This document shows positions 1,067 through 34,944 of a stretch of DNA of 39,000 nt, in pieces. The notes under the pieces are model-generated. The model searched no databases, was not told the DNA's origin, and saw nothing but the letters and a program-made list of their open reading frames with translations. Origin of the DNA: Halichondria panicea (lineage: Eukaryota > Porifera > Demospongiae > Suberitida > Halichondriidae); the NCBI RefSeq assembly GCF_963675165.1, contig NW_026986618.1, positions 1-39,000 on the forward strand, read 5' to 3'. The stretch's first letter is position 1. Each line of letters starts with the position of its first letter. The translations under genes and the position numbers were made by a program.

Positions 1067-2994
1067 CTTTATTCCTCCTGTGAACTACAATGACGACAAC
1101 ACGAGTCACCACCGTTGCATTCAGATTGGGAATCTCATACTTCGCAAAAAAAGAGCTCTCAGAGAACGTTCCATTCACCTTCTCTCCATAGCCGAGGAAG
1201 AAGATGACTCCTTGTGCAGCTCTTGCAAACAAGACTGAAAATTGCTCGAAGAAATCGAAGGCAACACTGCACGGGCAGGACATGTTGTACTCTATACCAT
1301 CTGTGGACCGAGTTGAAAAACGGCATAACAACATAATTATTATAATTATACGTACACACTGATTGTACCAATCAAATTTTATTTTCACAGTAATGTAGAC
1401 AAACCATTTCTAAGTATGCCGCCACAATACTCAGAACTGGTTCACTGTATGCATTGCATGAATATCACTTACAATTGATCTTATAATTATTATTGTTCAA
1501 CAGCTGTAGAATAACATACAGCCCTAGGCATGCACAGATTTCAATGCGTTTTCAAGCTTTTTCATTCGTTCGAAAAAGGAGCCATATTTGATGGTACTAA
1601 AACTCCAAAACGACGGCAGAATCATAGAAGCTGCTCTCTAACGAGATGGCTAGGCCTCAATAGGTCAATGGGCGTCAGTGCATGCATGCATAGTGTTTCT
1701 AGGAGGGTGCTGAGAGCGTGAATGTTGAAACGCCCGCGTACAGGAAGCCACACCCGCTTTCCCTGCGCATGACAATGTTTTTTAGATGTGGTTTCAATCA
1801 TTAGATGTGCAAAAGCTCTAGCTTTCAATCTGTTACCCACCGTTAATAGATAGCTCCCAGATAAACAGTAAGTCAGCAAGGGACGTCGAATGCACAACGC
1901 TTAGACCATGCAAGGAAGCTCCTATATAGCATCGTAGGAGATGACATGTTTGACGGCTGGCATAGTCTCATTTTTTTTGCAGTATGCATCATGCATTGGA
2001 CTGTTGCTAGGAGGTCCTTTTAAGTCAAATTAATGTATCACATTTAAGAGGAGGATATGCACTCGTATATGTTTCGCTACCGTGGTTACTCCAAGGTGTA
2101 CTTAATCAAAAAGCTAGTTTTACATTCTTTGATTTCATGAATCACAGGTGTATTATTACACACAAATGAGTATTTTAACACACCTGTACTGTTGCCGCTG
2201 GTGGTCCCACACCACCTCACCACCTCACTGACTCTTCTCTCAATGTTATTAATGATCGCAGTGGAAGGTTCGTTAGCCGAGGACACGATGTTGGCACCAG
2301 AGGCGCACATGCAACTCAGCATCTCAACCAATTCTGGTGTTTGAGTCCAGAACAAGGAGGTATCGGAACTATTGGATGTTCCAAAATACTGAAAATAGGG
2401 AAAGTAGCTCCTGCATGTGTGTGGGTTTAGCCGAGAGATATAATTTTGATAGCCAGTAGGCTGGCATACACAATACTCTGACCTGGGATGGTATGATAAT
2501 GCAGAGTACTACATGTAGTAACCAGACATTGTGAACACAGAGAGCCATTGTTACATATGTACAGGAATCGTGCGGCATGAGAATTTTCAGAGATTGTATG
2601 GCCTCACCATTAGACACTAATTATGATATAATGCTCAAGGGACTTCTTTTGAATGGGAGCTAAAAATAGCTGGTTTTGTTCATATAGCAATGCAACTATA
2701 TGGACATGCCAATCGATGACCTTTGAACATTTTTTGAACTACATAATAATCAATAATTATAGATTGGAGTACCTTCCGTAACACTTACTGTGGAGTTACT
2801 TGGCTGGGGTCCATCCCAGCGAATGCATCAGTAAATCTCGTCCAAACAAATTCACAAGTAGTGTTTCTCAATAACAGCTTAATGCATTCTTCTCGGTATA
2901 AGATCTCCAGGTTTCGTGGGGTGGGTGAGCACTGCCCACCCTCCTGTCCGTTAACCATGGCCAACAGGCTCAGGATACCAAGCAATATCCACAT
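1067..2994 (-). CDS. ADP-ribosyl cyclase (CD38/BST1 family), partial, copy A
   Basis: Predicted secreted NAD-using enzyme of the CD38/BST1/Aplysia cyclase family, which makes cyclic ADP-ribose or hydrolyses NAD. Three exons join in phase: 2789-2994 (donor gtaagt), 2184-2410 (acceptor after tgcag) and 1067-1300 (acceptor after ccacag, donor gtaaag), giving 222 codons. Seen: a signal peptide (MWILLGILSLLAMVNG), a first-domain motif with Cys and VWTRFTDAF, LFWTQT with Trp90, RWCG at 134-137, FSVLFARAA at 165-173, and YEIPNL with Glu200. By family alignment Trp90 matches CD38 Trp125 and Glu200 matches catalytic Glu226; the second active-site Trp (CD38 Trp189) is Phe162 here. No frame lesions are seen in these exons. 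The last two exons of the family are not in the 1066 bases to the left, so the gene is partial. If the final donor were unused, the frame would run on to a stop at 939. Its upstream side has no CARD partner, unlike the other two copies. Confidence 0.8.
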
Positions 2995-3300: not shown

Positions 3301-3663
3301 GCAGTAAACCATCATTTGTACTGGGGGATTTTTTGGCAGGAAGATACACCACAGATAGTACAATACACAATACAAAACAGGATCACTTCAGCTATACATG
3401 TAGCTATAGATTAGACACAGGCAAACAAGTCCATAGCAGCTATATTTGTATACATTATTCTGAGTTATTGCTTGCTTATGATGCAGCAATAAAACTGGTA
3501 CCAGTAGTGAAGCCAAAAAAATGATTAAACTTGAAACGCCTTGTCCAGCTGATACACCTGCATACCAAAGACAGTGATTATAGCATTGGACATGTACACA
3601 CAATTATTTGACAGCTTAGCTGAGAATGATATCCACTTTATAATGATTGTGTCACAAGATATA

Positions 3664-4083
3664 TCGTATTACTTGATTAAACGTCTCCTTGAATAATAAA
3701 CGCCCAGGGTAAAAGCTCTGTCTTTGTCAATAAACGCCCATCAGTGTTAAATATATATGGGGCGTGGCACTGTGGATGGAGCTGAAATAGCACATGGAAC
3801 CCAGTTGCAAGCATAGAACAATAATACTTTTATTATGCATCGATGGCAGAGAGAGAGATACCGACACAGAGGGCACTCCTATGACTTAAATTTAAGATGA
3901 GAAATAGATTTAAGCTGAGACAGCAGCCCAAGAAGAGCACAATAAACTGCTGCTGTGCAAGAGTTTTGGAGTATATAGACATAACAATAAACGCCTTCCT
4001 GGATTAAACTACCTCCTCGTTTAAACGCCCCGCCCCCTCTAAAGACTTCGATCTGAAATAAACGCTTAATCAAGTAAATACGG
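3664..4083. mobile_element. MITE, TA-flanked, cgtattacttgattaa termini
   Basis: A 420-bp element with imperfect terminal inverted repeats: left tcgtattacttgattaaacg, right (reversed) ccgtatttacttgattaagc. It is flanked by TA on both sides, as for Tc1/mariner-like MITEs. Inside, the motif aataaacgccc repeats several times. The corresponding place in copy 2 (about 27045-27066) lacks it, so it inserted after the duplication or was lost there. No coding capacity is seen; the ORF on the minus strand at 3879-4106 crosses the element end and is not a gene. Confidence 0.7.
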
Positions 4084-4199
4084 TAACTATAACTGAGCTG
4101 GTACAAGTGCTTAATTGTACATTAACGAGCCCTAGCTGAGCAACCATAGCAGTGTTTGTATATTTAATGATCAATTGGTACTAACTTTCAACATACACC

Positions 4200-4792
4200 A
4201 CCACGCCAGAGGAGGTGGGACGTGTGTCATCAGTCACATGGCAATGAAATGCCGGTGTGGCATACAATGTTTACGTTAGCTAGGCTCTTGACCTTTAACC
4301 TTTCCTTAGATTTCAGTGTAGCTATGGTGCCTGTGGTAGATCTACTGTTGTGCTCTCTAGCAAGCTCACATCGCATTCTAGTAATCTCGAATATTGTAAA
4401 TTGTTATGGAAGATGGCAACCAACCTGAGTTAACCTCCCTAGACTGCTCTCCGTAGTAGCTTATGTACAGTTAGGTTTGATGGTGAATTTCAAGCTATTG
4501 AGCCGGTCCCACTGGGATCGCTGATTCACAATCCTTTCACTACATAATTATTATGATAGCTAAAATGTTAGAGAAAATTACCGTGGGATTGCTAGCTGTT
4601 TTGGATTAAGATTTTTTTTCAGAGGACAAACCTGGGACCTCTCTATAATAAGGATTGTAGATTATCTGTATCGTATGCCACGACTTACAGATCAATTAAT
4701 TATAGGTTTGATTAAGCACTTTCATTACATTCCGTTCACGCCTATAAGTTTATTTATGCTGAGTCAGCTAGACAATATTATTGATCCTGCAC
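4200..4792. other. non-coding insert specific to copy 1
   Basis: This stretch is absent from copy 2, where shared sequence passes directly from the equivalent of 4200 to the cyclase 3' end. No gene or clear inverted repeat is seen. Short ORFs have no recognisable family. Confidence 0.4.
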
Positions 4793-4929
4793 AGAGGACT
4801 GGAGGTCTGACATGCGTGCATGAATCACTACAAGTTCAGTGCATTGATGTCATTGCGGTCACGTGATAACATCCAGGTCACAATGCACTGAACTTGTAGT
4901 GATTCGTGCACGTATGTCGGACCTCCTCT
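4793..4929. repeat. fold-back hairpin element
   Basis: Two arms of about 50 bases pair with each other. The inner 25 bases (4822-4846 against 4881-4905) are perfectly complementary, and the outer parts (gaggtctgacat against atgtcggacctc) have a few mismatches. The loop is about 34 bases. It is most likely a fold-back or MITE-type element; a structured RNA precursor cannot be excluded. Confidence 0.75.
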
Positions 4930-4995
4930 GGATCATGCATGTACCTCCTCTGAGTCGCATGCATGGCTTGCTCGCAATAATTTGTCACATAACTA

Positions 4996-5172
4996 CAGTG
5001 GAACCCCTATAACGGACACCTTTGGGGAACAATTAATGTTTTGGCCTTTATATACAGAGTTGGCCTTTGTTGAGAGGTTGTTTTATACACAAACTGTTCA
5101 TTTGGGACCTGGGTGCCTGGCTGTTATATAGCAGCTGGCCTTTATTCAGAGGTGGTAACAGAGGTTCTACTG
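4996..5172. mobile_element. MITE with CAGTGGAACC termini
   Basis: Starts cagtggaacccct and ends agaggttctactg, which is an inverted repeat with two mismatches, flanked by TA on each side (4994-4995 and 5173-5174). It is 177 bp with no coding capacity. Inside, the phrase ttggcctttatata recurs in variants. Terminal form and TA duplication fit a mariner-type non-autonomous element. Confidence 0.75.
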
Positions 5173-5174
5173 TA

Positions 5175-5605
5175 TTGTATGCATGTCAAAATCCTGAGAT
5201 CTCTGTGCTCATTACCTGGAATCACTGATTGCATGGATAGATTTCTCAGAATCGATTTCCTGGAATTTGATTGCTGACAGTCAGCCCACTCCATTTCCTG
5301 GTAGCGGTATTATGCTTGTGAGGCTTCCCGCCCACAAGCTGGGATGTGGGTAGACCAGGAAATGAGTGAGGTGTTTTAGTACTTAATTGTGTGGAAGCTT
5401 ACAGGTTAATTGGCTGCTTAAAGATCCTCACTTTTCTTGCACAAACCCTTGTCTAAATCTTTGCGGTTAAACGTGGATTGTTAATTATTGAAGCGCACGT
5501 GATGCGTGTCCTATCTCCTCTGCCACCACGCGTAACCTTGACTGCATGCACTAGCATTGATAAACCAGTTTAATTTTCTACACAATTGCAATTAAAGGGT
5601 GTGCA
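5175..5605. other. non-coding stretch 3' of cyclase pseudogene
   Basis: No gene is seen. Sequence shared with copy 2 resumes at about 5570 (ttaattttctacacaa), just downstream of the cyclase stop codon; the rest is specific to copy 1. Confidence 0.4.
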
Positions 5606-7607
5606 CTACTCACCGACGTTGCAAGGATCTGTTCCATTATCCTGACGTCGTTGTCTCCCTGAGTTCAGTGGACAACTGACTTCTTTCTTAAAGCACGGAT
5701 CATCTGATGGTTCTCTATCTGTTGGTTCTCTATCTGTAAAAAGGATGGATCGTAATATTGAACCGGGTTTTTGTAAAGCATTTAGTAATTGGTAATTAGT
5801 AATCGAATGATTATAGCCATGCAGTATAGTTTCTGTAGTGTATATAGTCTGCACTGTACACGGCTAAAGGTGAAAAGCGGTACTACTTACTACTATCATA
5901 CACTTCCTGAATGCTACTGATGATGTTGGCAGTACAATTGGTCAGCTCTACCAAGCTAGAATCAGTGTTAACGAGATAACCGAAAATATCGTAACAGCTA
6001 TATCCGGAATTCGTGCAACAAGTCTCTGTTGTAAAATGAGCAGTGAGCCTTGTCCGCACCTCTCGGAGACACCTGCACATAATCACCAGCAGATGTGATG
6101 GGTAGATGTGATACTGTGTGGTTACAATCCATTCCACACTTATCTTATCAGTATGAATATTAGCATTATACCTGCAATAATCAAGAAAATACACTGAACA
6201 AAAACAAACACATGCTCACAGCTAGTATTTCATGACAGGTTGAATAAAGCAAATACTATATTAACGTACCACCATCAGTCCGTGAGACATGCACCACCAT
6301 GATGACTGCCTGATCTGTTCAAGGCAGGAAGGGATTTCATGCATCGCAAAGAAAGGATCCAAGGGGAAAGCTCCTTTCTCAGACTCTCCAAAGCCGAGAT
6401 AAAAGATGGTGCCTGCTGCAGCTTCAGCAAATCTAACTGAGAACTCTTGGAAGAAAGCATAGGAAGTATTACACGGGCACATTCCAGTGTACTGTATGCC
6501 GTCTGAAATGGAGGAAGATGAACTTGAAGTAATTATTAATCGATCAGAGATGAATGTATAATGCAACTCAGCATCACTGACAACTCTATAGTTTGAGACC
6601 AGAACAGGAACGTGTCCATCTCAGCCATGTTGAAGTAGCGCTCATAGTTTCTATAGGAAAAATAGTATATTGAATTCACTGTATGTATAGCTATAGTAAT
6701 CCATATGCAGGGGAGACTTTGCAACAGTTATAATGGGGACATTGTCTACAGAAATGTTTGTTCAAACAGACATGCACAAAAGGTACCGTTTAGCAATTTA
6801 TTTTCGAGAAGCTAACATTAAATTTTGATGAATTAATCTAGAATTAACCTTGAATGTTAGTGCCTCAAAAAATTTAAACTTTCTACTGTACGTGTAGAGG
6901 TGTAATTATTTGAACCTCTACCTTAATGTTACTATTATAGACGGGTAGTAATTTTAGCATTTTCAGATTTTTTTCTGTTTTTAGGGTACTAATTTTGGCG
7001 GATTTGTAAAATTCATCACCACAATATATCTCAAAAGATGTACATGTACAAGCATGGGTTTTAAGGTTGAATGGAAAGTTTGGAGTCAGATACAGATGAA
7101 GAAAGGGCTAGCTTGCTTAGCATACTCTTAAAAGTACACAAAAGTACATTAAAAAAAAGAAAAAGAAAAAAAACAATAACATTTATTTTATTTTATGAGA
7201 TTCATAATAACAGGAGTACATGAATAGGAGTAAGCAACTACTATACAGCCCATACAAACGTGTTGTTATCTCACTGTGTCATGCCACGTCATACTACATG
7301 TGTAAAACGCCCACATCTCAAGTGGCCTACAACCACAATCAAAACAGTGTGGTTAATTACATGCACTGTGCAAGCACACTTGGTAGAATAGGTCCAGGTG
7401 GCTAGCTCTTGCACAAAATAAAGAAAAGCAAAGAAACATGCACACAGCAAAGCAACTGTGATAGAAGTTGCCAAAAAGCTTGCTAAAATAATCTAGCATT
7501 GGTGAGAAAATTAACTGAAGAAGTAGAGAAGCTACCACAACTAGCTAGAGATGTACCCTGAGAGAAAATAGGTTTCTAATATAATCTCTAAGGAACAGGA
7601 TGATGGC

Positions 7608-8075
7608 TTGGTGAAGCTTGCAGACCGCCTGTGCAATCAATACAAACAATTTTACATCAAGTGTAGAGGCAAAGATGCATACTTAAATTTTCAAATTCAG
7701 TGGTACGATTTCCTACGTTGCGTTGCATCTGGGGCAGAAATGAAGCTCTCAAAAGACTCACAAGTAATAGACTCAGACTATGAAGAAACTTCTACTTTTA
7801 ATCTCTTGTTACTGCTGTGTCTAGTTGACGTTGTTTCCTCAGACACAATAGCAAGTTGTGTGTCTGAGGAAACAACGTCAACCATTGCAAGTAAGAGATG
7901 GAGCAACTTTAGCAGCTGTCACACCTCTAGTTTAGTTCTCTCTATACACGGTAACCCGGCACCACACACAATGCTAACTGCTTTGCATTGCATCAAACAT
8001 GTTATTCAGCAAAGATTAGTCAATTTCATGGTGAACAGCCAATTCCGTCTTTTTCTAAGGTTAAGCATTCTCTAG
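7608..8075 (+). CDS. unrecognised ORF inside the intron-1 transposon
   Basis: A 155-codon open frame within the inverted-repeat element. I do not recognise a family. The first 60 residues look protein-like (LADRLCNQYKQFYIKCRGKD, then a hydrophilic stretch); the middle is encoded by a perfect hairpin (7824-7882), giving a hydrophobic run. It may be a remnant of a transposase exon or a chance frame in a non-autonomous element. Confidence 0.2.
   Translation: MVKLADRLCNQYKQFYIKCRGKDAYLNFQIQWYDFLRCVASGAEMKLSKDSQVIDSDYEETSTFNLLLLLCLVDVVSSDTIASCVSEETTSTIASKRWSNFSSCHTSSLVLSIHGNPAPHTMLTALHCIKHVIQQRLVNFMVNSQFRLFLRLSIL
7824..7882. repeat. 24-bp perfect hairpin
   Basis: Left arm 7824-7847 and right arm 7859-7882 are exact reverse complements with an 11-base spacer. 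It lies inside the intron-1 transposon, so it is probably a recent local inverted duplication. Confidence 0.85.
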
Positions 8076-8353
8076 ATGATAATTATTAGCTGAGTAGATC
8101 TTATCTATGTTATTCTCTAAGTCTTGTATATAGTTTCAGCCTAGCCTGCACATGCACTTGCACTCTTGTTGACAATTTCTAAGTGAGCCTAGCATGCAGC
8201 CATACATGGTCATGTGTACACAAAGTAACCACAGTTTACACTACTACAAGTGTTTGTGCCGTAGTGAGATAATAACGAATTTATATGGTGTACATAGTAG
8301 TTGCTTACTCCTATTCATGTACTCCTGATAATAATAATAATAATTTTTAATTG

Positions 8354-8450
8354 AGTTTTATTATTAGCGCGTACTTAATTTAGCGTTAATTACAAATTCG
8401 CTAAAATTCGCTAAAATTAGTACCCGTTTACAATAGTAACAATAAGGTAT
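8354..8450. repeat. dispersed repeat, second copy
   Basis: Shares ttattattagcgcg, attacaaattcgctaaaatt and the following aataaggta with 903-974 in the same orientation. Low coding content; it is probably a degraded MITE end. Confidence 0.5.
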
Positions 8451-8763
8451 ACCGAATTATATCCTTGAAATTCCGCGAAATGTTTAGTTTGAGCAATCTG
8501 CTAAGTGCCAAATAGTAGCTCCTCAAAAATATAGTGCTATAATACGGTAATTGTATTAGAACAGTCGGTTAGTTGCTATAACAATGAGGAAGTAAACACG
8601 TACACTGTAGTTATACCACTAGGGTCTCAGTGCGGCAAGGCAACACCACATCCAATTAAGAACAGGGTTTGAAATCCTTGTGGGGTGGGGTCACAGTCTC
8701 CATTTGGTTGGTCGTTACCAGCGACAGCAGAAAAAGTAGAGCCAGTGCAATTATGTTCCTCAT

Positions 8764-9095: not shown

Positions 9096-10260
9096 ATGAC
9101 TACAGTGCAACCATTAAGTGTAAGTGAAGACACTGATTCAATAGAAGTTGGCAAACTAGTCTACCACACAGCTCTTTGGCAGATACTGATGAATCAGTTT
9201 CTAAGGAATCAATAGTTATACGAGAGAATCTAAAAAAGAACCGTGAAGCCATTCTAAGAAGCCTTGATCCATTGTATCCGCCGCTTTACAAACTGTTAGA
9301 TCACTATGAACTTGCTGAAGAATTTACAAATGGTACTGAGAAGAACCGTAGAAAAATGGCCGAAAGACTTCTCAGCAAGATCGAGCAATCGGGTGATTAT
9401 AGGCAGTTTTTGGACTGCCTTGAAGAAGATTATGATGATGAACACACGGGACACACATACATTGTTTCATTACTCAATGGAAAACAGTTCGGAAAGAAGG
9501 AGGTGGAAAAACACATTGAATCAGAGAAAATTATGAAGAGTACAACACAAAAAGGTGGATTTGTTATAGATCAATTAGATCCAAAAAGTTTGTTGCCGTA
9601 TCTTAAAGTCTATAAACTGGTCACCAGTAACGAGGAGGAAGAGATGTTATTAGAAGGAAAAACTCGTAGGGATAAAGCGATGCGACTTCTCGCAATTCTC
9701 AAAACCAAAGGCCCCACCGCTCATCACGTTTTCCTGCACGATTGTTTAGCTGGAAAAGACGCAAATCATATTCACCTTTATACTTTGCTAACTGAATCTG
9801 ACTCACCTTACACCAGAAAGAGAAAAACATTTGCCCACAGCTCAATTGCTCCCCCTACGAAGGCACAACGAGTAACAAGTGTTCAAAGTGCAATATCTGC
9901 TCCCCCTACAACTTTACTATGGTCACAACTCCGCCTTTTACAGCTGCCTAAAGGTATCACACAAGAATGCTACATAACAAAAATTTCAGGAATTCGACAA
10001 AATTTCTCGACTGCTATGAATTCGTTACAAGCTGAAATGAACTCACCAGATAATTCACGGGAAGCCAGAATCGCATTCTGCCTGGAAAAGTGCTTCTTTT
10101 ACGTAAATAACATAAAGGAAACTGAGCGCATTGTTTCTCAGGCAAGGAAAATGAATCTTGCCGGTAGTAATAGTCAAGTTCTAGAAAGTCGATGTGAGCT
10201 AGTGCTGAGACGGTGCTACACCAAATGTAAAAAATATGACCAAGCCAAGAAATGTCTGAA

Positions 10261-13045
10261 CTAGAGCACTAAAGTGCAAACCCTCGGCTGGTGACATGAT
10301 TATAAAGAAACCAGAAGACTGATATAATGCAGTGCATATAGTGATGTTGTTATCATCATCATGCATGACTTGCACAGCAACTCAGGAGCAATAAAACTAA
10401 ACCAGACTGGAGGCATGCTGAAACATTAATTTTGAGAACAGGTAGTAGTACTATAAATATATGCACTGTGGATTAGGATCACAGCAAAGAAGCATGGAGT
10501 CTCAGAGAAGTATGGCTCCAGGTCCTGCATGGATCCCAGTCAGCTAAAGCAAGCTTTCTGGTTTAGTGACCCTGTTCCAATATTGTTCCTGGTATATACA
10601 GCTTTCTACTTTAGTGACCCTGTTCCATTGTTTCTGGACCTGGTACAGGATCACTTCAGTTATAAGTAACGCATGTGCAAGTTCTGTTCAAGCTACATTT
10701 TGCTCGCTTTTATTAGACAACAAAGCTTTAACACCGAAAGCTGCCACTATTAGAAGTACTGGCTTGTTGTGTGGAGGCTACCCATGCTGTAAACGCAGTG
10801 CTAGAGCATCCAGGTAAGCAGACCCAGTCACAAGCTTCTTAGCTTTTGCTCGTTTTTATTTGACAACGAAGGTTTAACATGAAATTCTGCCACTATTAAA
10901 ATTAATAACTTGTTGTATGAAGGCTATCCATGCTGTAAACGCAGTGTTGTGGCATCCAGTTGAGTAGATTCACCTGTCACAAACAAACAAACAAACAAAC
11001 TAGAGCACTAAAGTGCAAACCCTCGGCTGGTGACATGATAATAAAGATAATGCAGTGCATGTAGCATGTATGACCAGCACAGCAACTCAATAGCTAAACA
11101 CTGGAGGCATGGCATGCTGAAACATTGAGTGGTACATGTCACATGAGACATGCACTGTGGACTGGGATCACAGCAAACTTGCCACGTGGCCTGGAGTCTT
11201 AGGCTTAGAGAGTCCTGCCAGGCTGGAGTATATAGGATCCAGCAACCAGTCACATTTTAGCTTTTATTGTTCCTGGTACAGGATCACTTCAGCTGCAAAT
11301 ACGTAGTCAGCAGAGGTAGATAATTCTAGCTTTCTACTTAGTGACCCTGTTCCATTGTTCCTGGTACAGGATCACTTCAGCTGTAAGTAACCCATGTGGA
11401 AAAATCACAATGTAAATAGGGTATCTCGAATAAAGACCGCGTGTAGTTAGCAGCTGCCAACGGGCAAGTTTAGCTTTTGCTCGCTTTTATTCGACAAAGA
11501 AACTTTAACATCAAAATCTGCCACTATTTAAATCAAGATATTGTTGTGTGAAGGCTATCCATGCTGCAAACGCAGCGCTATGGCATCCAGGTGAGTGGAG
11601 ATTCTCGTGACAAACAAACAAACAGACAAACTAGAGCACTAAAGTGCAAACCCTCGGCTGGTGACATGATTATAAAGAAACCAGAAGACTGATATAATGC
11701 AGTGCATATTATAGTGATGTTGTTATCATCATCATGCCATGACTTGCACAGCAACTCAGGACTAAACCAGACTCGACTGGAGGCATGCTGAAACATTTGA
11801 GAACAGGTAGTGGTACTTTAGATAATATGCACTGTGGATTAGGATCACAGTAAAGAAGCCTGGAGTCTCAGAGAAGTATGGCTCCAGGTTCTGCTTGGAG
11901 TAGGATCCCAGTCAGCAGCAGGAGCTATAATTCAAGCTTTTACTTTAGTGACCCTGTTCCATTGTTTCTGGTATATACAGCTTTCTACTTTAGTGACCCT
12001 GTTCCATCGTTTTCTTGGTACAGGATCACTTCAGTTATGAGTAACGCATGTGCAGGTTCTGTTCAAGCTACATTTTGCTAGCTTTTATTAGACAAAGGAG
12101 CTTTAACACCGAAAGCTGTCACTATCAAAAGTACTAACTTGTTGTGTGGAGGCTACTCATGCTGTAAACGCAGTGCTAGAGCATCCAGGTAAGCAGACCT
12201 AGTCACAAGCTTATTCAAGCTTCTTAGCTTTTGCTCGACAAAGAAGCTTTAACAGCAAAATCTGCCACTATTTAAATCAAGATATTGTTGTGTGAAGGCT
12301 ATCCATGCTGTAAACGCAGTGATGTGGCATCCAGGTGAGTAGATATACCTGTGACAAACAAACAAACAAACAAACTAGAGCACTAAAGTGCAAACCCTCG
12401 GCTGGTGACATGATAATAAAGAAACCAGAAGAGTGATAATGCAGTGCATGTAGCATGTATGACTAGCACAGCAACTCAAGAGCAATAAAACGAAACCAGA
12501 CTGTAGGGATGCTGAAACATTGAGTATGTCACATGAGACATGCACTGTGGACTGGGATCACAGCAAAGAAGCCTGGAGTCTTAGACTAAGAGAAGTATGG
12601 CTCCTTCCAGGCTAGAGTATAGGATCCAGAGTCAGTCAACAACAACTAGTCACAATTCTACTTTCTTGGCCCTTATTCATGTTACGGGATCACTTCAGCT
12701 GCAAATACCTAGTCAGCAGAGGTAGTAATTCTAGCTTTCTACTTTAGTGACCCTGTTCCATTGTTTCTGGTACAGGATCACGTCAGCTGTAAGTAACCCA
12801 TGTGGAAAAATCACACTGTAACGTAGGGTATCTCGAATAAAGGCCGCGTGTAGTTAGCAGCTGCCAACGGGCAAGTTTAGCTTTTGCTCGCTTTTATTCG
12901 ACAAAGAAACTTTAACATCAAAATCTGCCACTATTTAAATCAAGATATTGTTGTGTGAAGGCTATCTATGCTGCAAACGCAGCGCTATGGCATCCAGGTG
13001 AGTAGAAAACCCCATCACAAACAAACAAACAAACAAACAAACCAA
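10261..13045. repeat. higher-order tandem array (A-B-A-B) interrupting the CARD gene
   Basis: Four units each begin ctagagcactaaagtgcaaa, at 10261, 11000, 11631 and 12375; unit lengths are about 739, 631, 744 and 670. Units 1 and 3 resemble each other (both have ccagaagactgatataatgc and a cat-repeat), as do units 2 and 4 (both have agcatgtatgac), so the array is two copies of a dimer of about 1.37 kb. Each unit ends in (caaa)n. Shared inner blocks include gtgaccctgttccattgtt, aggatcacttcag and a block ending gcatccaggtgagt or gcatccaggtaag, which looks like a splice donor. No protein is recognisable. Confidence 0.85.
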
Positions 13046-13047
13046 CA

Positions 13048-13247
13048 GACTACTATACCCGCTGGCCGCGGCACGGCCTCGGGTAACAAACAGACCAACA
13101 TACTACTATACCCGTGGCCGCCCACGCGCGCCTCGGGTAACAAACCAAACGACTACTATAACCCGTGGCCGCCCACGCGCCTCGGGTTAACAAACAAACA
13201 GACCAACAGACTACTATACCCGTGGCCGCCCACGCGCGCCTCGGGTA
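13048..13247. repeat. CpG-rich minisatellite
   Basis: Four imperfect units of 40-60 bases starting near 13048, 13110, 13151 and 13209, each with ctactatacccg, then ggccgcccacgcg, then cctcgggt, separated by (aac/aaac) spacers. It is much more GC- and CpG-rich than its surroundings. The open frame that ends in the CARD gene's 3' half reads through it as repeated PWPPTR units; this is repeat translation, not a known domain. Confidence 0.85.
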
Positions 13248-13796
13248 ATAATGCTCATACAACTTCATCTACCTTTGAACCAGGAGAAGACGCAATATTG
13301 GCCAACTACTTCATAGCATGCAGTCTCAGTACTGATCAGAGGGACATGATCACTACGTTCCTACAAAAAGTTATTTGTTTATCAGAGCAAGAAAACTATG
13401 GGATGGATATCGCTCAGTATTGCAAAATTCGTCTAGCTCAAATGTACATTGGAGTATCGCCGGATAATCCAGATTCTTACAAAGGTGACATCTCACAAGA
13501 TGATTTAAAACGTTGCAACAACTTGTTGGAACACATAGAAGCGAAGCACAAAGACATGCAGCCTGCAGCAAAGTGCCTTTATTTGATTGCCTACTCTGAT
13601 GTGTATCGGCTAGCTGGAAAATTTGATGAAGCAAGAGAATATACAAAACAAGCAGAAAAGACCGCTATGTCGAAGTATCATATTTCGTTAGTAGAAAAAC
13701 GGCAATTTCTTTTGCAGTAGAACTATAGTTGATTATCGAATGTTCTTTTTTTCGTTTTATCAGTTTGGTCTGTTCAGTTCATGTTTTTTGTATATA

Positions 13797-22285: not shown

Positions 22286-23940
22286 TAGGCTGTTGTCTAT
22301 CCAATTTCCGGCTGGATATGATATTCTGATAGACCATGCAGGGAACAGGTTTTCGAGTTTCCAACAAAGCCACCATGCATGCAGCATTTGAAATGAGCTG
22401 ATACCCACCTATAAAAGAATGAATGCAAGCTAAGCTGCATGAACTATTTTCTTACCTGTCAGTGTCGTCCAGGCCGTTGGTCCACCCAGTTTCCAAAACA
22501 GAAAAGGTTATGGGCCAACGTCCAGGTTTATTAGTATAACTGCATGATGCCAACGGAGAGCCACCAAGCTCTGACAACCAACTATGCAGGAACACATTAA
22601 AAGAATGCTCAAGCTGCGTGAACTATTTTCTTACTTGTCGTCCAGGCCGTTGGTCCACCTAGTTTCCTTAATTGATGCAAACAAGAGACACTAAGCTTTG
22701 AAATGAGCTGACACCAACCTGGAACACATTGCATTCAAGCTGCGTGAACTATTTCTTACTTGTCGTCCAGGCCGTTGGTCCACCTAGTTTCCAGAAGCAG
22801 GACATCTTATGGACCAACGAGCAGGTTTTCTAGTTTAAAGATGCCAATGGAGACACCATGCAAGCTTTGAAGCTCACACCAACCTGGAACACATTAAAAG
22901 AAAGTGCGTGAACTATTTTCTTACTTGTCGTTCAGGCCATTAATTGTCCACCCAGTTTCCAGAAACATGAAACCTTATATGGACCAACGAGCAGGTTTTC
23001 CAGTTTAATGATGCCAACGGAGACACCATGCAAGCTTGCTCACACCAAACTGGAGAACACACTAAAAAGAATACATTCTAAGTGTGCGAACTATTTTTTT
23101 ACTTGTCGTCCAGGCCGTTGGTCCATCCAGTTTCCAGAAACAGGAAACCTCATAGACCAACAAGCAGGATTTCCAGTTTATAATGATGCAACGGAGACAC
23201 CAAGCTTTGAAATGAGCTCATAATCACACCAAACTGGAGAACATATTAAAAGAATACATTCAAAGTGCGCGAACTATTGTTTTACTTGTCGTCCAGGCCG
23301 TTGGTCTATCCAGTTTCCAGAAACAGGAAACCTCATAGACCAACAAGCAGGATTTCCAGTTTATAATGATGCCAACGGAGACACCAAGCTTTGAAATGAG
23401 CTCATAATCACACCAAACTGGAGAACACATTAAAAGAATACATTCAAAGTGCGCGAACTATTTTTTTACTTGTCGTCCAGGCCGTTGGTCCATCCAGTTT
23501 CCAGAAACAGGAAACCTCATAGACCAACAAGCAGGATTTCCAGTTTATAATGATGCCAACGGAGACACCAAGCTTTGAAATGAGCTCATAATCACACCAA
23601 ACTGGGGAACACAGAATGCATTCAAAGTGCATGCATTCAAAGTGCGTGAACTATTTTTTTACTTGTCGTCCAGGCCGTTGGTCCACCTAGTTTCCAGAAA
23701 CGGCCTCCTGTATGGACTAACGAGCAGGTTTTCCTGATGCCAACGAAGACACCAAGCTTTTAAATGAGCTCGGATACGGCTATAAAAAAGAATGCATGCA
23801 AAGTACAATGTATTTTCTTGCTTGTTATCCAGCCCGTTGGTCCACCCACTGAAATAGGAACTTTAATGGACCAACGAATGCATTTTCAGGTTTACCTGAT
23901 ACCAACGGAGCCATACCGAGAATGTTTAAACACTTGTACT
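22286..23940. repeat. right subterminal tandem array, palindromic units
   Basis: About ten units, reverse complements of the left array. The core is cttgtcgtccaggccgttgg, then tccacctagtttccag, a spacer, gaccaacgagcaggttttcc and gatgccaacggagacacc. Three consecutive units from about 23100 to 23640 are nearly identical with a period of about 182, showing recent local amplification; the outer units are more diverged. Short frames here are repeat translations. Confidence 0.85.
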
Positions 23941-26000: not shown

Positions 26001-27256
26001 GATAGAACACTTCCTTTAGCCAATCAAATTGCAGTATTTATGGCAAACATGATCTAAATAAACGTTAGAAGCCTCTCCCTAAAATAGAATTGATTGCGAT
26101 ATTGATAAACCTCACAATATTGTGAAACTTCGCCAAAGTTGGAGATTATAGCCATGTTAATGGTTACGGCAGGACACAGAAACAGGAATGGTGGCAGAGT
26201 TGCTATCTATAATTATAACAATCTTAGTTATAAAGTCACGGTCATAGACAGTTTGATTGAATGTATTGTTGTTTCTTTGCAATTAAAGTTAGTGTTTTGT
26301 ATAGGCCCCCCCAAGCAGCAAAGCTGATTTCTTATAACACCTACTAACTGGTTATATTGCCTCTTGACATAATAATCATTTTTCTTGAACATAATAATTA
26401 TTATAGGTTACGGTATACTGTACTATACTATACTATATAACCTATAATATTATGTTTGGTGACAAGAAAATTTCGTTGACTACAGGCCTGTTCCAATACT
26501 AGTAATTAAACTGCTTGAAAATAAATTGCAGTCTTGCTGCATGCTGGAGCAAATGAACCACACTCTGAGCACCAATAGGGGTTCACACCTGGTAAATCAA
26601 CTAGATCTACCACTGCCCTCAGTTTCTTGGTAAACCATCATTTACACTGGGGATTTTTTGGCAGGAAGATACATCACAGATAGTATACTATCTGTATACT
26701 ACAATACAAAACAGGATCAGCTATATAGCTATAGATTAGACACAGGCAAAACGAGTCCATAGCAGCTAAAATCTGTATATGAGTTATTGCTTGCTTATGA
26801 TGCAGCAAAAACCAGCACCAGTAGTGAAGCCCAAAAAATGATTAAACTTGAAACACCTTGTCCAGCTGACACACCTGCATACCAAAGACAGTGATTATAG
26901 CATTGGACATGTACACACAATTATTTGACAGCTTAGCTGAGAATGATATCCACTGTTTACATAGTACACATGTGTATATCGACAGTTTGTGGAATCCTAC
27001 ATGCACTCACACACTGTATAGGTCTTGATAAACAATGATTGTGTCCCAAGATTAATTTTTGCAGGTACTAGTTGAGCTGGTACAAGTGCTTGTACATTAA
27101 CGAGCCCTAGCTGAGCAACCATAGCAGTGTTTGTATTTAGATCAATATTATTATTATTAGTCAAACTTACAACATACACAATTGCAGATTAATTTTCTAC
27201 ACAATGGCTTTATTGCTAATCATGCTGAAGCTATAACAGTCAATGAAGGGTATGCA

Positions 27257-29250
27257 CTACTCACCGGCGTTGCAAGGATCTGTTCCATTATTATCCTGGC
27301 GTCGTTGTCTCCCTGAGTTTAGTGGACAACTGACCTCTTTCTTGAAACACGGATCATCTGCAGGTTCTCTATCTGTAAAAAGGATGGATCGCAATTGAAC
27401 CGAGTTTACCGTAAAGAATGGATATGACTATAGCCATGCAGTATAGTTTCTGTAGTAATATAGTCTGCACTGTATATATGGATTATTAACAGGTATTCAA
27501 CTATCATAATAATTATACCTTCTTGTATGCTAGTGATGATATTGGCAGCACAATCGGTCACCTCTACCAAGCTAGCATCAGTGTTAACAGGATAACCGAA
27601 AATATCGTAACAGCTATAGTCAATGTCCGGAATTTGTTCAACAAGTCTCTGCTGTAAAATGAGCAGTGAGCCTTGTCCGCACCTCTCAGAGACATCTGCA
27701 CATAATCACCAGCAGATGTGATAGGCAGACGTTATACTGTGGTTACATTCCATTCTACACTTAATTAGCTTATCAGACCATCATCATTATAGGAAATACA
27801 CAACATGCTCACAGTATAGTGACAGTGTTTCATGACAGGTTGTGTGAATATACTCACTAGATGCCATTACATTAACGTACCACCATAAGTCTGTGAGACA
27901 TGCACCACCATGATGACTGCCCGATCAACCAAATTCCTGTTCAAGGCAGGGATTTCATGCATTGCAAAGAAAGAATTCAAGGGGAAAGCTCCTTTCTCTG
28001 ACTCTCCAAAGCCGAGATAAAAGATGGTGCCTGCTGCAGCTTCAGCAAATCTAACTGAGAACTCTTGGAAGAAAGCATAGGAAGTACTACACGGGCACAT
28101 TCCACTGTACTGTATGCCGTCTGAAATGGATAAGATGACATATTAAATGACATAAGAGATGGATGTATAATTATGTTCTGAACAATTTGTGAACGTATAG
28201 TTATAATAGTAGTTACATAATTCTGGTTTGGGGAATCTTGAAAACCATAAGTAGTTTAATAATGGACAAACTGAAACTATAGGGACTGCATTATGTGGTT
28301 AGTATATACATTTTGATAGTTGACATGGTTACGAGACGTGTCATAACTTTGACTTACTTATACCACCACTGGTAGTTCCACACCAGCGTAACTGCGTCAT
28401 GGGCATGTCCAACCTGTCGGCGATTTTGTCCATGATTGATATCGGGAAATAATTTGGACCAGAAAACACGTCAGCAGCATTACACATGCAACTCAGCATG
28501 ACTGACAACTCTATAGTTTGAGACCAGAACAAGAACGTGTCCATCGCGGCAGTTATCGGGAACATGTTGAAGTAGTCCTCATAGTTTCTATTTAAGGAGA
28601 AAACACAGTACGTTTAATTCATTGCATGTAGCTATAGACCTAGCCTATAATAAATTAGTAACCCATAATTATGTAGGGGGAGTTTGCACAGTTATAATGA
28701 GGATTGAGATGTTTGTTCACAACGGACTGTATACATGCAGAAGGTACCATATAGCGCTTTATTTTCGAGGAGCAAACATTTCATAGTTTTTGCGGATTGA
28801 CCTTGAACCTCGAAATGTTGGTGCCTCGAATCATTGTTTACTCACGGTATTACCTCTCTACTGTAGGGGTGTCACTGTGGTCGTTTGAACCTCTACCCTC
28901 GAAAATATTACTACTAAACGTTTAGTTTGAGCAATCTGCCAAATACTAGCTCCTTGGACAATAAAGTGCTATATAATATCTGTATTATTTGCTGAAACAG
29001 TCGCTGTAACAATGCAGTGACTATAAGTAAACACGTACTCTGTAGTTATACCACTAGGGTCTGTGTTGGCAAATGCTGAAGAAAATGCACTCCAATATCC
29101 ATCACACGTGGTATTTATCCGCCCCAAGGCAACACATCCATCTAAGAACAGGGTTGGAAAGGTTTGTGGGGTAGGGTTGCAGTCTCCATCTGGTTGGCTG
29201 TTTACCAGCGACAGCAGAACAAGTAGAGACAGTGCAAATATGTTCCTCAT
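27257..29250 (-). CDS. ADP-ribosyl cyclase (CD38/BST1 family), complete, copy C
   Basis: Secreted or ectoenzyme-type cyclase expected to convert NAD to cyclic ADP-ribose or ADP-ribose. Five exons with good GT..AG borders join in frame: 29039-29250, 28358-28587, 27881-28120, 27519-27695, 27257-27372 (975 nt, 324 aa plus stop). Signal peptide about 1-18 (MRNIFALSLLVLLSLVNS), no later membrane segment. Family hallmarks: Trp92 in LFWSQT (CD38 Trp125), RWCG at 138-141, CPC at 156-158, FSVRFAEAA at 168-176 (CD38 has SRRFAEAA), and Glu203 in MHEIPAL (catalytic Glu226). Phe165 replaces the second active-site Trp (CD38 Trp189). Exon 4 gives SERCGQGSLL and a Cys pair, and exon 5 adds a Cys-containing hydrophilic tail. 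An NTT glycosylation site lies in exon 1. The frame ends GE-TAG; the same bases form a donor (gtgagt), so an extra 3' exon is possible, but AATAAA occurs about 50 bases on. It is head to head with the CARD gene. Confidence 0.9.
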
Positions 29251-30032
29251 CTACATAACAATTATACTGGTCAGTCACAATTTTAAATAACCAATGCATA
29301 TAATTATTAGCTAATTGGTAGATCTACATTGTCATTGGTACAGAATCTAGATCTACAATTTAATATATAGATAGGCTTGTGTATAGATCTAGAATCTAGA
29401 TCTGGTGTGCTATCTAGACAAGACTCATGTGTAGTTAAGTTAGTCACTCACTGTGAATATTAGAAGAATCTACTGCAGCTAGCTGCTGCACTAATGCACT
29501 TTAAACTTTGTATTATAATTTGGAAGGTACATGTACGTAGCAAACCAGACTGACAAGCAAAGCCATGGTTAGTTGGGCGGAGCCCGACCGTCCCTGACGG
29601 GAGGTCGGGTTGCAAGCCTATCTGGGATTTGTTCTAGCGCCACTATAGTGGCGCCCTATCAGATTGCAGCATTTTTCACGTGGCTTGGTTACACTTCCGC
29701 TTGCATCTAGTTGCAAAACCGCATGCAGTATTGCTGTGCCATCCTTGTGGTTTACACGTCATCAAGTCGGTTAACACCCACTTGAGAATAATAATATATT
29801 ATTCATAGCAGTACTACATAATGCGCAGAACAAATCCCAGATAGGCTTGCAACCCGACCTCCCGTCAGGGACGGTCGGGCTCCGCCCAACTAAGCCATGG
29901 TAGGGATACAAATGAATATGCACGTAGATCTATATATGATTATGTTTCAGTATGATGTCATAATTAAGTGAGTTGTTAATACTGTACTAATCTACATAAT
30001 TCTCATCTCTGTTAATTCTGAATTAGCTAAAA
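29251..30032. promoter_or_regulatory. divergent promoter region of cyclase and CARD-TPR genes
   Basis: 782 bases between the two start codons, of which 332 belong to an inserted MITE with its target duplication. The remainder has repeated agatctagat-type segments (29330-29410). Any shared promoter must lie here; no core element can be assigned with confidence. Confidence 0.5.
29570..29892. mobile_element. MITE with 66-bp perfect TIRs and 9-bp target duplication
   Basis: Left TIR 29570-29635 (starts tagttgggcggagcccgacc) is the exact reverse complement of 29827-29892. AGCCATGGT flanks both sides (29561-29569 and 29893-29901), a 9-bp target duplication as made by Mutator-like transposases. An 18-base palindrome (gcgccactatagtggcgc) lies just inside the left TIR. 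The corresponding place in copy 1 lacks it. Related end sequence (gggttgcaagcctat) appears near 37850 and 38010. Confidence 0.9.
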
Positions 30033-31652
30033 ATGACTACAATGCAACCATTAAGTGTAAGTGAAGACACTGATTCAAGAGAAGTTGGCAAACTACTACC
30101 ACTTAACTATTTGGCTGATATTGACGAATCAGTTTCCCAGGAGTCAATACAAGTAAACTTAAAAAAGAACCGAGAAGCCATTCTAAGAAGCCTTGATCCA
30201 TTGTATCCATCGCTTTACGGACTGTTAGATCACTATGAACTTGCTGAAGAATTTACGAGTGGTTCTGAGAAGAACCGTAGAAAAATGGCCGAAAGACTTC
30301 TCAGCAAGATCGAGCAATCGGGTGATTATAGGCAGTTTTTGGACTACCTTGAAGAAGATTATGATGATGAACACACGGGACACACATACATTATTTCATT
30401 GCTCAATGGAAAACAGTTCGGAAAAATGGAGGTGGCAAAACACATTGAATCAGAGACAATTTTGAAGAGTATAACAAAAAAAGCTGGGTTTGTTATAGAT
30501 CAATTAGATACGAAAGGTTTGTTGCCGTATCTTAAAAGCAATAAACTGGTCACCAGGAATGAGGAGGAAGAGATGTCATTAGAGGGAAAGACTTGCAGGG
30601 ATAAAGCGACGCGACTTCTGGCACTTCTCAAAACTAAAGGCCCCACCGCTCATCACATTTTCCTGCACAATTGTCTAGCTGAAAAAGACGCAAATCATTT
30701 TCACCTTTACACTTTGCTAACGGAATCTAACTCAGCGAATACCAGAAAGAGAAAAATATTAGACCTCAGTTTAATATCTGCTCCCCCTACAAAAGTGCCA
30801 AGGCCACTTGACCCTTTACAACTGCCTGAAGGTATCGTGGCACAACGTTATCTAATAAAAATATCAGGTATACGACGGAATTACTCAAATGCTGAACCAG
30901 ACATATTAAAGACACAGTTAGAAAGTGAAGTGAAGTCAGCCGCTAATCCATTGGAGGCCAGGATCGCATTTTGCCTCGAAATGTCCTACTTCTGTGCAGC
31001 TGACATTAAACAAACAAAGCTTATCGTTTTTAGAGCAAAGGAAATGATGAAAAAGCTTGATGGGTGCAATAAACAAGTTTTGGAAGTTCGATATAGGCTC
31101 ATACTAGGTCGTTGCTACAGAATCTGCGGCAAAAACGATAAAGCCAGGAAACATCTCGATAATGCTTTTGCCATTCTCTACGTTCAAAACATTGAACGAG
31201 GGGAGGACGCAATATTGGCAAATTATTTCAAAGCATGCAGTCTCATGAAAAGTGTTGATAAGGTGGACATGGTTGTTAAATGTCTGAAAAATGCTATTGA
31301 TATTGCACAAAAACAAGACTATGGGATGGATATTGCTCACTTTTGCAAAATTCGCTGCGCTCAAGTTTACATTGGTGTATCTGCTGACAATCCAGTCTCG
31401 TACAAAGAGATTATCTCGCCATCCAGTGTAAAAGACGCCAAGGGATTATTGAAAGATTTAGAAGATAATCACTATTCAGACATGAACCCTGCAGCTAAGT
31501 GCTTTTATCTGATAGCCTGCTCTGATGTATATCGGCTTGCTGGAAATGTCGATGAAGCGCGAGAATATGCAAAGCAAGCAGAAAACACAGCTATGTCGAA
31601 GTATCATATTTCATTAGTAGAAAAACGACAAATTCTTTTGCAGGAGAGCTAG
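30033..31652 (+). CDS. tandem-CARD protein with C-terminal TPR-like repeats, complete
   Basis: Single-exon ORF of 539 aa, probably a cytoplasmic adaptor: CARDs are death-fold interaction domains used in apoptosis and innate immune assemblies. Residues about 42-128 form a first CARD-like six-helix domain (AILRSLDPLY, YELAEEFTSG, AERLLSKIEQSGDYRQFLDY). Residues about 148-232 form a second, more typical CARD (VIDQLDTKGLLPYLKSNKLV, RDKATRLLALLKTKGPTAHH, FLHNCL). A basic, Pro-containing linker follows (235-262). Residues about 308-530 are helical pairs resembling TPRs (LEVRYRLILGRCYRICGKND; AAKCFYLIACSDVYRLAGNV; DEAREYAKQA). There is no NACHT, kinase, caspase or LRR region, and no membrane segment. 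The start is supported because the paralogue keeps the same ATG context although its frame is broken afterwards. It is head to head with the intact cyclase. The domain calls are by eye; the first domain could be another death-fold type. Confidence 0.85.
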   Translation: MTTMQPLSVSEDTDSREVGKLLPLNYLADIDESVSQESIQVNLKKNREAILRSLDPLYPSLYGLLDHYELAEEFTSGSEKNRRKMAERLLSKIEQSGDYRQFLDYLEEDYDDEHTGHTYIISLLNGKQFGKMEVAKHIESETILKSITKKAGFVIDQLDTKGLLPYLKSNKLVTRNEEEEMSLEGKTCRDKATRLLALLKTKGPTAHHIFLHNCLAEKDANHFHLYTLLTESNSANTRKRKILDLSLISAPPTKVPRPLDPLQLPEGIVAQRYLIKISGIRRNYSNAEPDILKTQLESEVKSAANPLEARIAFCLEMSYFCAADIKQTKLIVFRAKEMMKKLDGCNKQVLEVRYRLILGRCYRICGKNDKARKHLDNAFAILYVQNIERGEDAILANYFKACSLMKSVDKVDMVVKCLKNAIDIAQKQDYGMDIAHFCKIRCAQVYIGVSADNPVSYKEIISPSSVKDAKGLLKDLEDNHYSDMNPAAKCFYLIACSDVYRLAGNVDEAREYAKQAENTAMSKYHISLVEKRQILLQES

Positions 31653-31893
31653 AATAGTTGATATTGAATTCATGGTATATTCAGTTGATGTTTGTATATA
31701 CATGCAACAGCGTGCAATGTGTTTCTTCTTCACCTTGTTTGGAGAGACACTATAATTAAAAGAGCAATCTTGTATTTATTGCCTAAAGTACAATGTATAA
31801 TGGGACCAAGCCAACCACTGACAGTGAGTGTTACTAGATCTATACTAGCCTCCTTTGCAGCCTCTCCTTTTCTGTTCTTTGTCACTGAAGAGA
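31653..31893. other. 3' flank of the CARD-TPR gene
   Basis: Contains the empty site (31691-31700, tttgtatata) matching the insertion point of the 10.6-kb transposon in copy 1, then the right end of the duplicated block near 31825. No gene. Confidence 0.7.
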
Positions 31894-33130: not shown

Positions 33131-34153
33131 TTAGGTACATTCGGAAGGAGTTGATATAATTTTTAGTTCTTTTCTAAGTGCTTTTTGCTTGCTCTTCTTT
33201 TCTGGCATATACTTTTCCAACCATGCTTTGGCAATAGAAAAACCTCGAATAGTAATCCACATTCCAATCATCTCTTTTAAAAGGTCAATAGCAATCTGCT
33301 CATTTGTGATGTCTACAGACAATAGAGTCCAATAAAACTGGACATCATCATCAGCAGCAACTGCACTCGCAATTACTTCTCTTTTATTTATTTCGTCTAA
33401 AGTGGATCCTTTGCTAAATGAAATCAGCAGGTGCTTTCTTACTCGTAATTCAATTATCCGAAACAACAGGTAAGCAGTATCATTTACCTCGAAGAGGCCT
33501 CCTCTGTCAACCTTAAGGCACCATTCTCGAGTGTAATCTATTAAACTGCTTTCTTCTCCATTCACTGCCATCGAGTGTAGACATTCCACAACTTCAGTAT
33601 TATAAGAGTCCTTGCTAGATCTCTTTTCATACTTACTTAGCATTTTGAAAGGAACGTATCCAGCAATATATCTGACTACATTATCTTCAACATTTGTTAG
33701 GGCAGGTATGTTAACAGTGCTGTCAACGACACTCTTACTGAAGTGCCCTGCAATCATGTCGGCAAAGAGTTTCTGAGTGGCCATCTGGTATATAAGTGGG
33801 GACAATGTGGGGCAATCCATTTCTTTACAAATTTTAGTCCACATTGTACTTAGTTCTCCACTGGATCTCAATTTGTGAAAGGAAGACCACATTTTTTCTC
33901 TGAGCACGTTCTTTGAGCGACAAATTTTATCAGTTATACAGCCAATAAAGCACTTTTCCAAGCTTTGAGTCAACCTGTAGCTGAAGTCATCAAATTTACT
34001 GGTATTTGTTTGGTTACTGGTTGTTGCCTTCAAAAACTTCTTAACTTCTTCCTGAACGTCTGTTATTCGATCTGAACCTGCTGTTGAGATTGTCAAGAGA
34101 TGGCAAATAGCTCCTCTTACAGTAGCTATAGCACTTCCACTTCCACTAGCCAT
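33131..34153 (-). CDS. orphan transposon-associated protein
   Basis: Open frame of 340 codons from the MASGSGS start at 34153; the frame is open further upstream to 34363, but that part runs through an inverted-repeat arm, so I prefer the internal Met. Helical, no membrane segment. Distinctive phrases: VRYIAGYVPFKMLSKYEK (mid-protein), REWCLKVDRGGLFEVND, VQFYWTLLSVDI, and WITIRGFSIAKAWLEKYM near a Lys-rich C terminus. I recall similar unnamed proteins in sponges and cnidarians, with no assigned function. The IAGYV phrase is faintly like parts of P-element-type transposases, too weak to name it. No DDE triad is evident by eye. It lies inside the 32115-35734 element. Confidence 0.55.
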   Translation of the reverse strand: MASGSGSAIATVRGAICHLLTISTAGSDRITDVQEEVKKFLKATTSNQTNTSKFDDFSYRLTQSLEKCFIGCITDKICRSKNVLREKMWSSFHKLRSSGELSTMWTKICKEMDCPTLSPLIYQMATQKLFADMIAGHFSKSVVDSTVNIPALTNVEDNVVRYIAGYVPFKMLSKYEKRSSKDSYNTEVVECLHSMAVNGEESSLIDYTREWCLKVDRGGLFEVNDTAYLLFRIIELRVRKHLLISFSKGSTLDEINKREVIASAVAADDDVQFYWTLLSVDITNEQIAIDLLKEMIGMWITIRGFSIAKAWLEKYMPEKKSKQKALRKELKIISTPSECT

Positions 34154-34195
34154 GACAGAATAGCGGTGTACTTGTAGATCTATTGAACAGTCCTC

Positions 34196-34556
34196 TTGAT
34201 ACTGATGGCTGTAGCAATTTCTCATAAGGACAAAGGTCAAATACACAAGACGGAGGCAGCAAAGATAAAAACAATGACCGTAACACGGATGGGCCAAGCA
34301 TTTATGTATGGAACGCCGTTTGCGACAAAATTCAGGCAGAATCTGATAGGCGTGTGCATCCAATATAAAATGGATTTTTGAAGATCGATTTTTAATAATC
34401 GATTTTTTACAGTTGATTTTCGATTTACACGTGAACGATCTTTGACAATCGATCTGATAATCGATTTTTGAAATTCGATTTTTGACAATCGATTTTTGAA
34501 ATCAACTTTTGATAATCGATTATTGAAATTCGATTTTTGATAATCGATTTTTAATA
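34196..34556. repeat. left arm of internal inverted repeat, ATCGAT-rich
   Basis: Pairs with 35465-35700: aggcgtgtgcatccaatata, ttttacagttgattttcgat and acgtgaacgatctttgac have inverted partners there. From 34380 on it is made of aaatcgatttttgataatcg-like units that are themselves near-palindromic. It overlaps the 5' extension of the orphan ORF. Confidence 0.8.
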
Positions 34557-34942: not shown

Positions 34943-34944
34943 TA

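Follow-up and report, generated by a model that had tools for sequence, protein, structure and literature searches.

A head-to-head pair of a cyclase homologue and a CARD-TPR gene

The stretch of DNA analysed here, a 39,000-nucleotide part of the genome of the sponge Halichondria panicea (contig NW_026986618.1 of assembly GCF_963675165.1, positions 1 to 39,000 of the forward strand, hereafter the window), carries genes of two families: homologues of CD38 and CD157 belonging to PF02267, which we call cyclases for short, and genes coding for proteins with CARD and TPR parts (CARD-TPR). Cyclase 2 and CARD-TPR 2 are direct neighbours in the genome and point away from each other, with exactly 782 bases between their start codons, or 457 if an inserted element resembling a miniature inverted-repeat transposable element (MITE) is subtracted (Table 1). 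This head-to-head arrangement had been proposed in an earlier note made from the sequence alone, and it was borne out by the gene model of the cyclase and by the 539-codon open reading frame (ORF) of its neighbour. With respect to the criterion of divergent starts within 1 kb, the 782 bases refer to the start codons.

Table 1. Position and strand of the genes and other elements of the cyclase/CARD-TPR locus in the window
Feature	Position	Strand	Evidence and details
Cyclase 2 (PF02267 gene)	26795..29250	-	gene model, Pfam, PDB matches, hydropathy of termini; exons 29250-29039, 28587-28358, 28120-27881, 27695-27519, 27372-27265, 26874-26795
Spacer between the two start codons, 782 bases	29251..30032		sequence
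MITE-like insertion in the spacer, 325 bases	29569..29893		67-base inverted ends, 7-9 base flanking duplication
CARD-TPR 2, single-exon ORF, 539 amino acids	30033..31652	+	ORF, profile and fold comparisons
Copy 2 of the duplicated block	26630..30800 (right end approximate)		counterpart 3304-9861; aligned pieces, 71-90% identity
Cyclase 1, relic, with 3' flank	3304..8763	-	pieces ~8763-8600, 6652-6548, 6503-6258, 6076-5898, 5722-5606, 3561-3493
CARD-TPR 1, relic	9096..13720	+	frame shifted near codon 22; interrupted by repeats at 10.26-13.25 kb; mosaic
Cyclase 3	1067..2994	-	exons 2994-2789, 2410-2184, 1300-1067; a fitting exon 4 beyond the left edge, on contig C6

The cyclases are divergent members of PF02267

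The model of cyclase 2, predicted from sequence alone, comprises six exons separated by GT-AG introns and codes for 348 amino acids. Its product matches PF02267 with an E value of 3.8e-31 (108.7 bits), and that of a related gene on another contig, C1, with 1.9e-36 (126.1 bits), the Pfam cut-off being 25 in both cases. Among PDB proteins CD157 was the best match of cyclase 2 (E 9e-16), and Aplysia cyclase and CD38 were also found; the alignments inspected were those with CD157 and Aplysia cyclase only. In all three cyclase genes examined the catalytic Glu is retained (MHEIP, KHEIP and KYEIP), and that of cyclase 2 is aligned with the Glu of Aplysia KYELP and of CD157 DYEIP. This residue is E218 in the bovine and E226 in the human enzyme, and E179 in Aplysia cyclase. 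Likewise, the first active-site Trp (LFW) is retained. The second one, which is W181 in the bovine enzyme and W189 in the human one, is Phe in 3/3 of the sponge genes (AFFQEF, AFFQEF and DFFEQF), at a position where CD157 and Aplysia cyclase have FW. Equally, the TLEDTL signature is replaced in every one of the three (SIMDKI, AIMGSI and AIINNI), with Met, Met and Ile, respectively, in place of its Glu. In the human enzyme, E146 sets the balance between cyclase and NADase activities.

TLEDTL is a named signature motif, and the role of the catalytic Glu is likewise described in PMC3329556, according to which the signature Glu and an Asp hold the nicotinamide in bovine CD38 and the leaving group is in stacking contact with the second Trp. 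Since the TLEDTL signature is replaced in the sponge genes, they were classed as divergent PF02267 homologues and not as canonical CD38-type cyclases. Counting back from the conserved Trp, CD157 also departs at the signature-Glu position, where it has Ser, although the HMMER alignment has a gap there; if this count holds, the departure of the sponge cyclases would not be unique. With the catalytic Glu retained and both the signature Glu and an active-site Trp replaced, they are useful natural variants, on which the control of NADase versus cyclase activity should be directly testable.

At its termini, cyclase 2 has a hydrophobic, signal-peptide-like start and a tail of the type that receives a glycosylphosphatidylinositol (GPI) anchor, the last 18 residues having a mean hydropathy of 2.19. 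The enzyme would thus be secreted, GPI-anchored and extracellular. Both features are to be expected in a GPI-anchored protein like CD157 (PMC4001052, excerpt). CD38 and CD157 are duplicates of one another (PMC6952987, excerpt), and the sponge cyclases, several copies in a row, are alike in this respect.

The CARD-TPR protein probably carries two CARDs

CARD-TPR 2 is laid out as a probable CARD at residues ~36-130, a CARD at 155-224 and TPR-like helices at ~266-539. The domain at 155-224 matches the CARD family (PF00619) with 39.9 bits, against a cut-off of 23.9, and its best PDB profile match is CARMA1/CARD11 (E 7.6e-7). In the first domain, a Pfam CARD match was obtained in 0/5 family members, one of which gave a weak match to PF06757 (E 0.0011), and a PDB profile search with this domain alone yielded two matches, neither of them a CARD. 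Comparison of its profile with that of the second CARD gave a probability of 81%. When the predicted fold of the first domain was superposed on known structures, the best among the matches listed was RIG-I CARD1 (Z 8.6, root-mean-square deviation 2.7, 88 aligned residues), and the CARMA1 CARD was also recovered (Z 7.2). In the 50 of 74 fold matches listed, CARDs and three designed proteins reached Z 5.2-8.6 and the others at most 2.9, although Z values of helical bundles may reflect only a common arrangement. The model used was built from two sequences and has a mean predicted local distance difference test (pLDDT) score of 58.8, the other four models having 40.5-43.4. A Foldseek search with the tandem-CARD model returned 66 matches at E <= 10, none of which had E <= 0.001. 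By the profile and fold comparisons, the N-terminal domain is probably a further CARD in tandem with the one at 155-224. The protein had been described as a tandem-CARD protein; Pfam supports this for the second CARD, and for the first the support comes from the profile comparison and from the fold of a modest model.

The best match of CARD-TPR 2 to the TPR profile has 21.7 bits, below the cut-off of 30.1. The fold of the C-terminal half (mean pLDDT of the model 55.4) matches the TPR domains of LGN and kinesin light chain (Z 14.6 and 13.5, respectively), as well as other helical repeats. No membrane segment is present in the protein.

RIG-I-like receptors consist of tandem CARDs followed by a DExD/H helicase. 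CARD-TPR resembles RIG-I and MDA5 in its pair of CARDs, the first being probable, and differs from them in having a TPR-like solenoid and no helicase; the CARDs of CARMA1 and CARD9 were also counted among its nearest known counterparts. As Pfam found no helicase, NACHT or LRR in the CARD-TPR 2 ORF, it was ruled out both as a RIG-I-like receptor and as an NLR, the latter being defined by NACHT and LRR in PMC12909245, which deals with sponge NLRs; from these sponge proteins CARD-TPR differs in the same two domains. In architecture, the only level at which they were compared, it is similar to the TRADD-N death-fold proteins of Amphimedon, in which an N-terminal death-fold is followed by a variable C-terminal part (PMC8195603, excerpt). 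Searches for relatives in prokaryote genomes and viral contigs gave 31 and 34 pattern matches, respectively, of which none was confirmed.

The other copy of the pair in the window is a relic

The pair lies in a block that occurs twice in the window, and the head-to-head arrangement was duplicated with it: in copy 1 the starts lie at 8763 (-) and 9096 (+), with 332 bases between them. However, both genes of copy 1 are broken. In cyclase 1, exon 1 has a 1-base deletion and has lost a chunk, more than half of exon 2 is absent, exons 3 and 4 have 7-base deletions and exon 6 has a 2-base insertion. In CARD-TPR 1, the frame change is accompanied by a TAG, and the repeats, amounting to ~3 kb, lie within the TPR half. 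These lesions rule out a working pair in both copies, and the claim that both keep the pair holds for the arrangement but not for the genes; within the window there is one intact head-to-head pair.

CARD-TPR 1 is, moreover, a mosaic. At sites where it agrees with a single relative, it goes with CARD-TPR 2 at 205/224 sites to the left of ~9910 and with the CARD-TPR gene of C1 at the remaining 19, and to the right of this point with the C1 gene at 132/212 and with CARD-TPR 2 at 80. None of 1000 shuffles matched this split. Over the final ~95 bases the gene sides with CARD-TPR 2 again (20:5). The break points of the C1-like tract were placed at 9907-9913 and ~13624. Sequence was thus probably exchanged between the locus of the window and the distant locus on C1. 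Between the N-terminal half of CARD-TPR 1 and CARD-TPR 2, synonymous divergence (Ks) is 0.26 and the ratio of nonsynonymous to synonymous divergence (Ka/Ks) 0.36, consistent with a late decay of copy 1.

Both families are neighbours at a second, distant locus

Both families were followed through the genome, 131,455,214 bases in 39 contigs, the window being contig C39; the assembly is possibly incomplete, and weak exons can escape such searches. The PF02267 search gave six matches: the window accounted for three, a single gene on C1 for two (each an exon), and the last, on C12, was sub-threshold. Protein searches with the cyclases (E <= 0.1) found exons only in the window, in the C1 gene and at the right end of C6, where a lone exon 4 was recovered. 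Having two in-frame stops and no cyclase or CARD match by tblastn (E <= 0.01), the C12 match, which is below the cut-off, was left out of the counts.

The exon at the end of C6 fits cyclase 3, a gene absent from the earlier note, by its place and, on reading, by its frame; exons 5-6 of cyclase 3 were not found at the C6 end. Base 1 of the window follows the last base of C6 (C6:7592338) within one repeat element with terminal inverted repeats, and the two other copies of this element that were compared align straight across the join. Given the continuity of both the repeat element and exon 4, the window continues C6 and not the locus on C1, and the possibilities that it is an unplaced scaffold or allelic to the C1 locus were thereby ruled out. 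Even on a shared chromosome a large distance would separate the two loci, since the one on C1 is more than 1 Mb away from the ends of its contig.

The search for CARD-TPR genes gave ten matches and, among these, six genes that have a CARD as well as a TPR part. C1 and C10 carry one each, C9 carries two, of which one is shorter, and the window holds the other two, including the relic. A cyclase neighbour is present in 3/6, the exceptions being the genes on C9 and C10. Those on C9 form a tandem pair (C9:2510001-2519900), and the C10 gene (C10:5641501-5651400) has an internal repeat in its N-terminal part. For the CARD alone, 43 of the 48 matches across the genome were above the cut-off. Conversely, all four cyclase genes found, at the two loci, lie within ~6 kb of a CARD-TPR gene, if the relic cyclase 1 and cyclase 3, which is partly outside the window, are counted; the latter is the farthest from its CARD-TPR gene, with cyclase 1 in between.

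At the C1 locus the two genes are arranged tail to tail, CARD-TPR (+) ending at 1082305 and the cyclase (-) extending over 1084533-1082564, with 258 bases between them. Pfam matches were found in 0/8 exon-sized ORFs around this pair at E <= 0.01, so that no family was assigned to the gene lying head to head with CARD-TPR on C1. In comparisons between the loci by simple counting, in which a Ks near 1 is rough, Ks was 0.93 and Ka/Ks 0.44 for CARD-TPR 2 and the C1 gene, and 1.29 and 0.29 for cyclase 2 and the C1 cyclase. With Ka/Ks below 0.5, these values fit a constraint acting on each of the two genes at either locus. The pairing of the two families claimed in the earlier note is therefore real and recurs on C1 in the opposite arrangement, so that it resembles a duplication block passed on by descent more than a proven shared switch.

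Introns 3 and 4 are at least as well conserved as the spacer

Without the MITE-like element, the spacers of copies 1 and 2 agree in 192/329 columns (58%), whereas 20 shuffles gave 46% on average and 51% at most. Agreement amounts to 142/211 (67%) on the cyclase side and to 51/97 (53%) on the CARD side, the latter inside the range of its shuffles (maximum 62%). As yardsticks, intron 3 gave 101/142 (71%), intron 4 88/121 (73%) and the 3' flank 142/154 (92%), and the CARD half shows 78% agreement in its synonymous positions (proportion of synonymous differences, pS, 0.22). By this rough yardstick, the spacer is homologous between the copies and appears under no constraint beyond that of introns 3 and 4. 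For the inserted element itself, 40 of 353 candidate copies were scored; apart from the one in the window, these are 39 sites that match it along its whole length or most of it at 88-98% identity.

Whether the spacer of copy 2 nevertheless acts as a bidirectional promoter driving the co-expression of both genes has to be weighed against the organisation of the Amphimedon genome. According to PMC4773876, 18,054 Amphimedon genes (45%) are divergent and 11,379 have start sites within 1 kb, a number called the highest among animals known at that time, and the median intergenic distance is 587 bases. Judged by this base rate, a head-to-head pair at 782 bases would be ordinary in Amphimedon. Divergent genes less than 1 kb apart are counted there as potential bidirectional promoters (PMC4773876, excerpt); the present pair is alike in this, and nothing was found to set it apart except the families involved. 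The short distance, with or without the inserted element, and the fact that the spacer is recognisable between the copies above the level of the shuffles speak for such a promoter. Against it, the C1 pair, being tail to tail, cannot share a promoter, the two pieces of the spacer stay below introns 3 and 4, with the CARD side in the shuffle range, and a high-copy element splits the spacer. We consider this explanation unlikely, though not negligible. As a cause of the linkage, a conserved shared promoter was rejected on account of the convergent C1 pair, where the linkage persists without one, and of the comparison of the spacer with introns 3 and 4. Together with the decay of copy 1 and the differing predicted compartments of the two products, these results lend no support to the co-regulation by a shared promoter that had been suggested earlier.

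Origin of the linkage

The explanation that we favour, and hold to be probable with some reservation, is that a single old juxtaposition of a cyclase and a CARD-TPR gene was spread by duplication and sequence exchange, the divergent arrangement being incidental. A gene for a CD157-like, probably GPI-anchored ecto-NAD-glycohydrolase/cyclase and an intronless CARD/TPR gene would have become neighbours once in the lineage. The pair would then have been multiplied locally, giving the cluster of C6 and the window, and been carried to the distant position on C1, its relative orientation changing and sequence passing between the loci, and the intact pair would owe its tight divergent spacing to a very compact genome. 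The surface enzyme might split extracellular NAD by means of its retained catalytic Glu, with altered residues for holding the nicotinamide. Its partner would be a cytosolic adaptor, whose TPR solenoid may bind a ligand, upon which the CARDs would nucleate an assembly. Their predicted compartments are different, the surface for the cyclase and the cytosol for CARD-TPR. Enzyme and adaptor would have no direct interaction, and a link between them might be indirect at most, for instance through NAD spilled by a CARD-driven lytic death. The two may be functionally coupled.

Several observations do not sit well with a merely inherited neighbourhood. The linkage has outlived a deep divergence (Ks ~0.9-1.3, 49-55% amino acid identity), a change of orientation and a relocation. 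Every cyclase found has a CARD-TPR gene close by, whereas pure hitchhiking predicts that some would be separated. In addition, the piece of intron 5 compared between copies 1 and 2 agrees in only 45/92 positions (49%), no better than its shuffles, which leaves the neutral yardstick for the spacer thin; the stretches compared are probably not true counterparts. The persistence of the linkage could instead be due to selection that keeps an NAD-consuming ecto-enzyme next to a CARD/TPR adaptor for one immune or cell-death response, the orientation being free. In favour of such a cassette, 4/4 cyclase genes found have a CARD-TPR gene nearby, with both loci and both orientations represented, and in the comparison of the loci Ka/Ks stays under 0.5 for either gene. 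However, the two loci are paralogous, so that they are not independent and count as one event, both genes have been lost in copy 1, 3/6 CARD-TPR genes have no cyclase beside them, and the two products are predicted in different compartments. On balance, we regard a cassette of this kind as rather improbable.

Still more speculative, and in our judgement improbable to a slightly greater degree, is its most specific form, a selected two-gene immune cassette of sponges in which a surface NAD-consuming enzyme with a rebuilt active site is kept next to a sensor or adaptor that combines RIG-I-like tandem CARDs with TPRs. If this were true, the cassette would be inherited together at the two loci in either orientation, intracellular sensing and extracellular NAD clearance or cyclic ADP-ribose signalling would be deployed as one response, and it would represent an animal counterpart of bacterial operons in which a sensor is joined by an NADase. 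In general, a functional linkage would mean that sponges couple CARD signalling to the metabolism of extracellular NAD, providing an entry to the wiring of NAD and death-fold immunity at the base of the animals. In the open-licence papers searched, the cyclase/CARD-TPR pairing was named in no title or abstract start listed, and no paper was found on Amphimedon together with CD38, nor on the term 'CARD-TPR'.

Other features of the window

Related arrays of repeat units lie at 22627-23749 (units of ~184 bases) and 14658-15109, in opposite orientations. Two further ORFs gave no Pfam match above the cut-off, one of 300 amino acids at 18933-19835 (+) and one of 456 amino acids at 33131-34501 (-). 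The latter is adjoined by AT-rich inverted repeats (34307-35693), with which it may form a mobile element.

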